This document shows, piece after piece, positions 16,887 through 40,622 of a stretch of 64,000 nt of DNA. Under the pieces are notes generated by a model. The model was not told the origin of the DNA and ran no database searches. It worked only from the letters and a program-made list of their open reading frames with translations. Positions within the stretch are counted from its first letter, which is position 1. Each line of letters begins with the position of its first letter. The stretch is from the NCBI RefSeq assembly GCF_004118265.1, contig NZ_SDHW01000001.1:1240001-1304000 (forward strand). The letters run 5' to 3'. The position numbers and the translations under genes were made by a program. Origin of the DNA: Lacibacter luteus. GTDB taxonomy: Bacteria > Bacteroidota > Bacteroidia > Chitinophagales > Chitinophagaceae.

Positions 16887-16967
16887 TGATTGACCAGCGG
16901 CGGCCTAATACCGGAAATTATTTTTAGATTTAACTACACACATTAACCAACCTTAAACTTATCTATC

Positions 16968-17909: not shown

Positions 17910-18353
17910 ATGGAACGACTTCATTTTTCTGTAAAAATCAACGCCCCCAAAGAAAAAGTATGGGACGTACTCTGGACCAAAGGCAACTACGAAGCATGGA
18001 CGGCTGTATTTGCACCAGGCTCAACAGCTATAAGCGATTGGCAACAGGGAAGCAGAATTTTATTTACCGATGGAACCGGCAACGGCATGGTAAGTGAAAT
18101 AGCTGAAAAAAGAGAGAACGAATACATGTCGTTTACGCATCTCGGCGAAATAAAAGACGGGATTGAAGATACCACAAGCGACAAAGTAAAAGTATGGAAT
18201 GGATCGAAAGAGAACTACACACTTACACAAAACAATAACGGCACCACACTTGATGTGGAGATAGACATCAGTGCGGAATATAAAGATTACTTTCTTGGCA
18301 CCTGGCCAAAAGCAATGGAAGTAATTAAAACAATGGCCGAGCAAACCAATTAA
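17910..18353 (+). CDS. SRPBCC (AHSA1-like) protein
   Basis: 147 residues, soluble. It opens with the SRPBCC signature ERLHFSVKINAPKEKVWDVL and continues with TAISDWQQGSRILFTDGTGNGM, YMSFTHLGEI and a C-terminal helix TWPKAMEVIKTMAEQ. This fold makes a hydrophobic pocket, but the ligand is unknown. It lies 17 bp after the DUF1801 gene and 10 bp before a VOC gene, so it is co-transcribed. Confidence 0.88.
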   Translation: MERLHFSVKINAPKEKVWDVLWTKGNYEAWTAVFAPGSTAISDWQQGSRILFTDGTGNGMVSEIAEKRENEYMSFTHLGEIKDGIEDTTSDKVKVWNGSKENYTLTQNNNGTTLDVEIDISAEYKDYFLGTWPKAMEVIKTMAEQTN

Positions 18354-18363
18354 ACCTTATCGT

Positions 18364-38718: not shown

Positions 38719-39285
38719 TCATTTCTCTTCATTTCCCCACCGAAACGTTTTCACATCAATCCCTGCAAGATCCAACACACGGTCAACAACTGTTGAAGCA
38801 ACTTCTTCAATTGTTTTTGGTACGCTGTAAAAACTGGGTGTTGCCGGGCAAATAATTCCACCTGCAAGCGTTACTGTTTCCATATTGCGGATATGAATAA
38901 GATTGTACGGCGTATCACGCACCACACAAATCAGTTTTCTTCTTTCCTTCAGCACCACATCAGCTGCACGTGTAATTAAATCGTTGGAAATACCTGTTGC
39001 AATGCGGCCCAGTGTACCCATGCTGCAAGGGATAATGATCATTGTATTGAACTGACCCGATCCCGATGCAAAAGGTGCATGAAAATCGGTTGTGGAATAA
39101 ACCTTGAACGGAAGTTGTTTATACGATTCGTCCTGTAGTTCGGTACGCCACACTTCCTTTGCATTTTCCGTCATAACTAAAGCAACCTCTGTCCACTGTT
39201 CCTTTGCTGCAGAAAGTTTTTCCAGCAGTAATTTTGCATAGATGGAACCACTGGCTCCGGTAACTGTAACAACAATTTTATGCAC
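38719..39285 (-). CDS. ubiX: UbiX-type flavin prenyltransferase
   Basis: 188 residues, a usual length. It makes prenylated FMN from FMN and dimethylallyl (pyro)phosphate for UbiD-type decarboxylases. Signatures: VTGASGSIYAKLLLEKL at the N-terminus, IIPCSMGTLGRIATGISNDLITRAADVVLKERRKLICVVRDTP and the end LAGGIICPATPSFYSVPKTIEE. The start is GTG 39285, right after an in-frame stop. No ubiD gene is in the window. It is divergent from the thioredoxin-like gene, with only 14 bp between starts. Confidence 0.93.
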   Translation of the reverse strand: MHKIVVTVTGASGSIYAKLLLEKLSAAKEQWTEVALVMTENAKEVWRTELQDESYKQLPFKVYSTTDFHAPFASGSGQFNTMIIIPCSMGTLGRIATGISNDLITRAADVVLKERRKLICVVRDTPYNLIHIRNMETVTLAGGIICPATPSFYSVPKTIEEVASTVVDRVLDLAGIDVKTFRWGNEEK

Positions 39286-39299
39286 TTATAAGCGTTTAA

Positions 39300-39857
39300 A
39301 TGAATAAGATTAACAAAAATAGCATGCAAAAGTTGTCTTTTTATTCCGCCCTTACAGTTCTGTTTATTTCTTTCGGTGCATTTGTAACCGAAGCACCCAA
39401 ACCCAAGCTGCAATGGAGCAGTCTTACAGAGGTAGAACAAAAGTTGAAAACCGCTCCCCGCCCCGTTTTGATTGATCTGTATACCGACTGGTGTGGTTGG
39501 TGCAAAGTGATGGATAAAAAAACCTACAGTAATAAAGATCTCATTGAATACCTCAACAATAATTTTTACCTGGTAAAGCTCAATGCCGAAACAAAAGCAG
39601 ATGTAAGCTGGAAAGGTAAAACCTATAAGTATAACGCATCCTATAAAACCAATGAAATAGCCTTGATGCTTACCAATGGAGAGCTGGCATATCCTACTAC
39701 GGTGATTATACCAGGCGAAAATGATGCACCTCAACCAATATCGGGCATGCTGGAAGTTAGCGAAATGGAAATGCTTGTGAAGTATTTTGCAGAAAAGAAA
39801 TTTGGCGTGCAAAGCTTTGATGACTATGCCCGTACGTTTAAAGGGAATTGGAAATAA
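39300..39857 (+). CDS. Secreted thioredoxin-fold protein
   Basis: 185 residues. A signal-type N-terminus (LSFYSALTVLFISFGAFVTEA) is followed by a Thioredoxin_7-like domain: LIDLYTDWCGWCKVM with active-site C65-G-W-C68 intact, a helix NKDLIEYLNNNFYLVKLN and a cis-Pro region LAYPTTVIIPG. Probably a periplasmic disulfide reductase/isomerase. It may start at ATG 39300 or at 39324. It is divergent from ubiX and followed by the twin sRNA-like units. Confidence 0.88.
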   Translation: MNKINKNSMQKLSFYSALTVLFISFGAFVTEAPKPKLQWSSLTEVEQKLKTAPRPVLIDLYTDWCGWCKVMDKKTYSNKDLIEYLNNNFYLVKLNAETKADVSWKGKTYKYNASYKTNEIALMLTNGELAYPTTVIIPGENDAPQPISGMLEVSEMEMLVKYFAEKKFGVQSFDDYARTFKGNWK

Positions 39858-39889
39858 TTTAACGTTTCAACAATAATTAAAAAAAAATA

Positions 39890-39971
39890 GCTATTTTGCC
39901 ATTGATGATAAGGTTTAATGGTTAATGGTAACTGATTAGCGCCTCTTCCTTTACGGAAGAGGTTTTTTTTT
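39890..39971 (+). ncRNA. Candidate sRNA unit 1 (core + terminator)
   Basis: A 36-nt core at 39903-39938 (GATGATAAGGTTTAATGG ...) follows an AT-rich promoter-like stretch with TATTTTGC just upstream. It runs into the intrinsic terminator CCTCTTCC / GGAAGAGG (39942-39962) and nine T. The core is identical to unit 2 and holds short frames only (MIRFNG, MVNGN). No gene lies downstream on this strand, so it is not a leader. Confidence 0.5.
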
Positions 39972-40055
39972 GCCCGTAAAGTTCAGAAACCCGCAATCCG
40001 GCCATCTTCTGCCCGAAATATGACAAACTGATGCAACTCAAAAAATAAAATCTTA

Positions 40056-40138
40056 GTCTATTTGTGTGATGATAAGGTTTAATGGTTAATGGTAACTGAT
40101 TAACCGTCTCCCCTCCTTTCAAGGCGGGGATTTTTTTT
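40056..40138 (+). ncRNA. Candidate sRNA unit 2 (same core, different terminator)
   Basis: It repeats the 36-nt core exactly at 40067-40102, 164 bp after unit 1, after a TATTTGTG stretch. It ends in another intrinsic terminator, CCCC..GGGG stem at 40110-40129 plus eight T, whose sequence is unrelated to that of unit 1. Conservation of the core with divergence of the stem suggests selection on the core. Confidence 0.5.
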
Positions 40139-40187: not shown

Positions 40188-40622
40188 CTATTTCGATGCA
40201 ATAACCTTGCTTGCAAAAATGATGTACATCGGCCCTTGTGGTATATAAGCAGCAGGCATATGTTTGTTTTTTTCCTGTGGCACAGCTACAATGGTTTTGT
40301 TTCCAAAGCTTGCTACTTTGTAAAAATTATATTTCATCATCACCGAGCGGTTTTCTAAACGTTCGTCTAATGTATTAACAGCATCAGGCCATTGGTTCTC
40401 TTTACTGTAGCGTATAATTTCACTCATCAACCCTTTGTCTGTTAACTGGCGCTTTACCTCTGTTTGCTCACTCTCGGTAATGTTATAGGTTGAATACATT
40501 TCTCCAAGATCGGTCACTTTAACCTGCACAGCTTTCTTCCCGTCAATATAAAATCCCTTTGTACAAGCGGCAGCTGTTACAACCAAAAGAAAAATGCCCA
40601 TTATCTGCGAAACTAATTTCAT
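40188..40622 (-). CDS. Unknown small lipoprotein
   Basis: 144 residues; lipobox TAAAC (about Cys20) after a hydrophobic start (IMGIFLLVVTAAAC). The rest (KAVQVKVTDLGEMYSTYNITESEQTEVKRQL, AVPQEKNKHMPAAYIPQGPMYIIFASKVI) gives no recognised fold. The gene has its own terminator and faces the twin sRNA units tail to tail. Confidence 0.75.
   Translation of the reverse strand: MKLVSQIMGIFLLVVTAAACTKGFYIDGKKAVQVKVTDLGEMYSTYNITESEQTEVKRQLTDKGLMSEIIRYSKENQWPDAVNTLDERLENRSVMMKYNFYKVASFGNKTIVAVPQEKNKHMPAAYIPQGPMYIIFASKVIASK

Follow-up and report, generated by a model that had tools for sequence, protein, structure and literature searches.

The 64,000-nt stretch of the Lacibacter luteus genome analyzed here (the window) holds two short tandem units that had attracted attention for an identical core followed by different terminators, and that had been proposed to be duplicated small RNA genes whose core binds either a target or a protein. 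Are the units such genes, and if so, what is the core for? The anatomy, conservation, and copy number of the units, the enrichment and position of complementary sites in the genus, and the similarity of relatives of the unit to the FopS small RNAs were all established by computation. The reading that we favor, with a probability of about 0.72, is that units 1 and 2 are paralogous small RNA genes whose 5' end would pair before the AUG of a set of mRNAs and hinder ribosome entry.

Anatomy of the Twin Units

The 36-nt repeat TGATGATAAGGTTTAATGGTTAATGGTAACTGATTA is exactly duplicated with a spacing of 164 nt (Table 1), as the original prediction had described, and the terminators differ in the way that it had noted, with a CCTCTTCC/GGAAGAGG stem and 9 T after unit 1 as opposed to a CCCC/GGGG stem and 8 T after unit 2. 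The TATTTG-like stretches that it had taken for promoters are found before each core (TATTTTG in unit 1 and TATTTG in unit 2), and the putative promoter blocks of unit 1 recur upstream of type-a units in other genomes of the genus. When the 22-nt middle of the core was used as a search word with up to 3 mismatches, only the two units were found in the window and nothing in 100 dinucleotide shuffles, which excludes chance; across the whole L. luteus genome the same word gave four matches (the pair and two further matches with 2 and 3 mismatches), and the reversed control gave none. The predicted transcripts run from about 39903 to 39971 (69 nt) and from about 40067 to 40138 (72 nt), and both are predicted to fold into an unpaired 5' end, a small hairpin, and the terminator. 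The small hairpin is weakly supported by sequence variation, with one of its six pairs varying, on one side, in 2 of 17 sequences and no double compensatory change.

The units had been argued not to be attenuators, and our data agree. Within the window no same-strand gene follows them, the right-hand neighbor being convergent as described, and the downstream genes vary between loci, so a role as attenuator or leader was rejected. Low-scoring Rfam matches of the window, such as those to Phe_leader (E 0.045) and PyrR, were also set aside, all of them lying below cut-off and being biologically unfitting.

Table 1. Coordinates of the twin units, their neighbors, and candidate pairing sites in the window
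Feature	Position	Strand	Description
Flavoprotein gene	38719..39285	-	PF02441; member of the conserved neighborhood
Thioredoxin-fold gene	39300..39857	+	Upstream of the units; member of the conserved neighborhood
Putative unit 1 promoter	39861..39898	+	Conserved AACGTTTCAACAATAATT at 39861-39878, TATTTTG at 39892-39898
Unit 1 core	39903..39938	+	5' seed TGATGATAAGGTTTAATGG; small predicted hairpin GGTTAAT-GGTAACTG-ATTAGC
Unit 1 terminator	39941..39971	+	CCTCTTCC-TTTAC-GGAAGAGG, then T run (9 T)
Putative unit 2 promoter	40031..40064	+	ATGCAAC at 40031-40037, TATTTG at 40059-40064
Unit 2 core	40067..40102	+	Same sequence as unit 1 core
Unit 2 terminator	40106..40138	+	CTCCCC...GGGGA stem, then T run (8 T)
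Next annotated-length ORF to the right	40188-40622	-	Convergent; matches Pfam USP8_interact
Candidate site AATTAAACCTTATC	18348..18361	+	2 nt before ATG (18364) of glyoxalase-family ORF
Weaker candidate site TTAACCAACCTTAAACTTATCTATC	16943..16967	+	Before ATG (16968) of Polyketide_cyc2 ORF; prediction only

Conservation of the Units in the Genus and the Family

Two copies lie 163–169 nt apart in 10 of 14 genus genomes, that of L. luteus included, and a single copy is present in G007. No core match was found in G006 or G012, and the one match in G013 has 3 mismatches and stands without the other parts of the unit; these three genomes also gave nothing in a laxer model search at E values up to 1. 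Across an alignment of 17 of the 21 distinct genus units (four near-duplicates were left out), the core is nearly invariant, and the terminators fall into two types, CCTCTTCC and CCCC, whose stems vary but stay paired.

The original prediction had suggested a search of other Chitinophagaceae genomes for the core with a trailing terminator. Our covariance model detected the unit in 76 of 244 family genomes belonging to 34 of 101 genera, with 1–5 hits each (E ≤0.001); its filters are strict, and G041 was missed in this survey yet has a copy (E 0.0012). Six of 396 genomes matched in a class-wide draw, five of them from the same family, including L. luteus. Carriers among the matches listed by a word scan were Niastella, Terrimonas, Longitalea, Puia, Paraflavitalea, Pinibacter, Niabella, Flavihumibacter, and Pseudobacter, and type strains with the core are found in Niastella, Terrimonas, and Flavihumibacter. 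The usual form outside the genus is TTTTCATAGGATAAGGTTTAATGGTTAATGGTATTTGATTAGT with a terminator, often behind TGCAAC and TATATTTG. At several loci the neighbors are thioredoxin-fold and UbiX-like genes (named by eye at the other loci), as in the window, where we take the PF02441 flavoprotein gene to be UbiX-like; apart from this locus, the copies have different neighbors. The paired copies kept in the genus, the stems that change yet stay paired, and the spread over genera support the proposal of duplicated small RNA genes, and the units look like real small RNA genes.

Several variants of the unit were also seen. The g85 genomes have an additional subfamily with GGTTAACG and other upstream sequences, and in genus g100 (L066, L067, and L068) two tandem units with unlike upstream regions and more diverged loops lie beside a ubiX-like/thioredoxin-like locus. 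An expanded subfamily with the core GGATAAGGTTTAATGGTTAACG occupies many unlinked loci in G097, G224, and G173 (L122–L132 and L141–L151), where the conserved region upstream is in most cases another one (TTTAGTAC ... TTATAATA), and by word these three genomes have more copies than the model's up to five hits per genome.

A third RNA-like unit was observed in four genomes (L140 at G000:C22:128898, L234 in G001, L230 in G010, and L258 in G002), and the L. luteus genome has the two copies plus this third unit. Its start coincides with the stop codon of a conserved gene upstream, and it retains only GATGATAAGGTTTAATG of the core together with a strong covarying terminator, and we therefore marked that stretch as the seed. 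The third unit could represent a small RNA that is derived from a 3' UTR and carries the same seed.

Similarity to FopS and Other Small RNAs

Multicopy trans-acting small RNAs are known from unrelated phyla, Qrr and LhrC being examples with unrelated sequences; the units described here resemble this type in their redundant copies, in the one conserved stretch that is predicted to pair, and in their unlike promoters and terminators. The Rfam search that had been suggested along with the family search yielded no family for the unit at gathering thresholds, and a permissive search tied relatives of the unit, not the window copies, to FopS (RF04319). FopS is reported to be a family of paralogous small RNAs of Bacteroides thetaiotaomicron that represses SusC, its members binding near the start codon of the SusC mRNA and blocking translation, an action countered by RbpB (PMC11697453).

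Two of six loci searched permissively matched FopS on the unit, with the two highest bit scores (E 0.25 and 0.52); lower E values were given elsewhere in that search by unrelated families. One of the two was L154 (31.8 bits, E 0.25 among the six loci), whose alignment with the FopS model runs from end to end with partial identity; a 141-nt stretch that was chosen afterwards gave an E value of 0.0018. Over 40 family genomes the FopS model produced 122 rows at E up to 1, the best at 35.6 bits, and no genome reached the Rfam gathering threshold of 56 bits. Of these rows, 34 coincide with loci that our own covariance model had found, 13 of the best 16 among them, and they come from 27 of the 30 RNA-bearing genomes tested (not in G000, G001, or G184); ten genomes without an own-model hit also give background rows, one at E 0.033. 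There was no FopS row in the window at E up to 5, and the window copies and those of G001 and G184 were not recovered on their units by this model. The 5' end in the genus reads GATGATAAGG instead of TTTTCATAGGATAAGG.

FopS shares with the predicted transcripts of the units a length of about 65–70 nt, a single-stranded 5' seed followed by a terminator, a multicopy state, which we find here, and pairing at the mRNA start region, which we predict here (PMC11697453). In relatives of the unit the alignment with the FopS model runs from one end to the other, and UUUUCAUaGgAUaAGgUUUAA and GGUUAAU are common to both. In contrast, these relatives score 30–36 bits at best against the cut-off of 56, and the window copies have no match; the candidate targets in our set are mostly lipoproteins, GIN/DUF2807 proteins, permeases, and injection-system genes, not SusC; the units have an extra small and weak predicted hairpin; and the host organisms come from another family. 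From these sequence comparisons we read the relation as distant kinship or strong convergence, not membership. GibS of B. thetaiotaomicron, which is reported to have the R1 seed in common with FopS (PMC11697453), likewise has a long single-stranded 5' seed that pairs with start regions but differs in being 145 nt long with two seeds and middle hairpins, a likeness drawn from its published description (PMC7366714). Among the matches listed in the open PMC literature we found no report of such an RNA in Chitinophagaceae, and the main text of PMC11697453 has no words beginning Chitinophag or Sphingobacter.

Complementary Sites before Start Codons

In the genus genomes, imperfect core matches elsewhere, when read on the opposite strand, were often located just before start codons, and we therefore listed sites of CATTAAACCTTATC, the complement of the 5' part of the core, with at most one mismatch in the 14 genus genomes and examined all 107 that lie outside the tandem units. 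The 11 RNA-bearing genomes contain 104 sites (reversed word, 11) and the three genomes without the RNA contain 3 (reversed word, 8), a contrast that is not independent because there are few RNA-less genomes, two of them measure only 2.4 Mb, and all three may have branched early. Four of the 104 sites are the complement of the third RNA-like unit, leaving 100, and about 59 of these are not beside a start.

In a loose test an ORF start was close downstream at 49 of the 107 sites, as compared with 4 on the opposite strand. A strict test placed an ATG 0–17 nt downstream of 41 of 104 sites on the mRNA strand and of 2 of 104 on the opposite strand, with 0 of 3 sites in genomes without the RNA and 429 of 20,000 random positions as controls (binomial P 1.6e-40, which assumes independent sites, as orthologous sites are not). 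The near-start sites belong to about 20 gene families when the N-termini are grouped by eye. Pairing of the flanks covers 7.3 of 12 positions at the 42 near-start sites versus 5.8 at the 62 others (P 0.006), and the pairing energies of the same two sets differ with a P of 0.025. Identity in 30 orthologue pairs was 96% at the site, 77% over the first 60 coding bases, 56% over the 14 bases upstream, and 42% over the preceding 14, a comparison biased by the choice of pairs for having the site. A less biased comparison is that of the GIN gene, where, in the RNA-bearing genomes, 8 of 11 orthologues have AAACCTTAT or AAACCTTTT before the ATG (a raw count of 9-mers, with no chance rate) and that of G012 does not. 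The enrichment of the complement just before start codons in this genus supports a predicted target-binding role for the core, one of the two functions that had been offered for it, and a predicted regulon is supported in this genus only.

Two arrangements of the sites were noted in addition. At L294 (G008) and L315 (G007) two complementary sites directly adjoin each other before one start codon. At L176, L026, and L038 (G010, G002, and G000), and perhaps at L186 (G005), a conserved stretch bears a target-like CATTAAACCTTATC(C) site with no clear gene start, followed at L176 by a stable hairpin; this stretch may be either an RNA sponge or some unrelated element.

Broader measures of targeting gave little. 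Family-wide and outside the genus, the target-like word was only slightly commoner with the RNA, at 47 sites in 72 genomes (reversed, 25) versus 61 sites in 168 genomes without a model hit (reversed, 41); the four genus genomes in this draw had 5 sites each and none of the reversed word. Among 26 exact complementary sites in G097, G173, G220, and G224, 23 proved by eye to be opposite-strand RNA copies and were rejected as targets. Duplex energies at 334 starts of the L. luteus genome showed no excess over 30 shuffled cores (17 at ≤-14 kcal/mol versus a mean of 24.8), and 453 starts near copies in other organisms gave no clear signal against 20 shuffles (5 at ≤-18 kcal/mol versus a shuffle mean of 1.9 and maximum of 4, with 2 in the mid-gene control).

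The core of real small RNAs might instead mainly bind and titrate a protein, such as one with an RRM, with leader pairing as a secondary feature. All 12 genomes tested encode RRM_1 proteins, L. luteus with four genes, and the identity of the core over 20 nt exceeds the need of many pairing seeds; in Bacteroides, moreover, the RRM protein RbpB is reported to bind FopS in its seed region (PMC11697453). We nevertheless consider titration improbable as the main function, since it does not predict that the enriched word is the complement of the core, on the mRNA strand and beside start codons, and G006, G012, and G013, which are without the RNA, have RRM genes as well. A shade less probable still is that CATTAAACCTTATC before starts reflects a general translation-start context of the genus, its complementarity to the RNA being coincidental or unused. 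Start contexts in Bacteroidota are reportedly AU-rich and Kozak-like rather than of the Shine-Dalgarno type, and words like TTAAACC are commoner before starts than within genes in the 334-gene sample (9 versus 2), but the word is rare in the genus genomes without the RNA (3 sites against 8 reversed), and across genera the RNA core is conserved in its own right. That the units are a repeated DNA element, duplicated terminators, or short coding frames rather than functional RNAs is very improbable, because, despite short frames in the core such as ATGGTTAATGGTAACTGA and many copies in some genomes, the upstream boxes are kept, the terminator stems change while staying paired, the third unit is without the core half holding the ATGGTTAATGGTAACTGA frame, and the neighbors differ outside the ubiX/thioredoxin locus. 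A dispersed repeat without terminators was rejected, as the copies carry terminators.

Candidate Targets

Of the 334 starts of the L. luteus genome, the site before the glyoxalase-family ORF in the window gave the best duplex energy (-22.9 kcal/mol), and the site before the Polyketide_cyc2 ORF gave the second (-21.4 kcal/mol). Recurrent candidates are an MKF-starting lipoprotein (5 genomes), a second lipoprotein (3 genomes; both named as lipoproteins by eye), DUF2807/GIN, a DUF4440 protein, cytochrome c, MacB-like permeases, CarboxypepD_reg proteins, and hemerythrin, some of these names also being given by eye, whereas a TM2 protein and methyltransferases are among the single cases. Many of the candidate mRNAs encode secreted, lipoprotein, or membrane proteins. 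No SusC target was seen among the genus candidate sites in this one-word search, and two CarboxypepD_reg candidates have sub-threshold Plug matches. Single cases outside the genus are SusD-like (L359), permease-like (L366), and lipoprotein-like (L373) genes and a methyltransferase (L342 and L344).

A contractile-injection-like cluster in G008 (C7, ~124–141 kb) and G009 (C5, ~104–121 kb) has several genes with their own site before the ATG (loci L292, L293, L029, L182, L300, L301, L191, and L183). The genes with a site encode a protein without a Pfam match that we take to be sheath-like, a PAAR protein, and an unnamed protein (L292/L301); that of a Pvc16_N protein also has a site, with more mismatches.

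Copies in Viral Contigs

The 19-nt seed word occurs in 15 stretches of 14 IMG/VR contigs, mostly followed by a terminator-like stem as judged by eye. In L514 and L525, which lie on one contig, and in the second copy of L515, the seed starts 2 nt after a tRNA called by ARAGORN, and in L524 it starts 15 nt after one; in L517, L521, and L523 it follows tRNA-like sequence that ARAGORN did not call. Of ten proteins tested from contigs of this kind, seven have PHROGs matches, an integrase and exonucleases among them, and none is a structural gene product, the viral label being that of IMG/VR. A FopS-derived word was found in 9 viral stretches, and among named phage records the matches were weak and confined to 3 records.

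Because the same seed stands directly behind tRNA genes in some of these contigs, tRNA 3' processing would release a ready-made small RNA, and the distance of 2–15 nt looks as if a phage small RNA were freed in this way. In the genus the 5' end of the RNA would have become GAUGAUAAGG in step with its sites, many of which read CCTTATCATCATG. We propose, tentatively and with more doubt than confidence, a Chitinophagaceae-wide riboregulator family, distant kin of FopS, whose seed and leader sites would have co-diverged and which phages would have captured, tRNA 3' processing releasing the small RNA into the host regulon.

Proposed Mechanism and Implications

If the 5' end indeed pairs before start codons, as in the reading that we favor for units 1 and 2, terminated transcripts of about 69 and 72 nt would be made from the two units, and their unpaired 5' end UGAUGAUAAGGUUUAAUGG would pair with a CAUUAAACCUUAUC(AUC) element that lies a few bases before, and sometimes reaches, the AUG. 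Such pairing would hinder ribosome entry, with repression as the probable sign; by analogy with FopS, it is most likely that the 5' end covers the start region of the target and lowers translation. The unlike upstream regions could let two inputs feed one regulon, and the same analogy points to a possible RRM-protein partner.

In this phylum, control by small RNAs has been described chiefly in gut Bacteroides. The sequence evidence suggests, in a family of soil and water bacteria, an undescribed RNA switch that is similar in design to a gut-bacterial one and has many envelope-protein messages as candidate targets, and the regulon prediction supplies a small set of genes for which the predicted pairing is exact. 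A way in which phages might tap such a regulon is suggested by the viral copies that stand behind tRNA genes. The presence of a conserved multicopy RNA and its predicted regulon in environmental relatives would point to FopS-type control as older and more widespread than reports have so far indicated.
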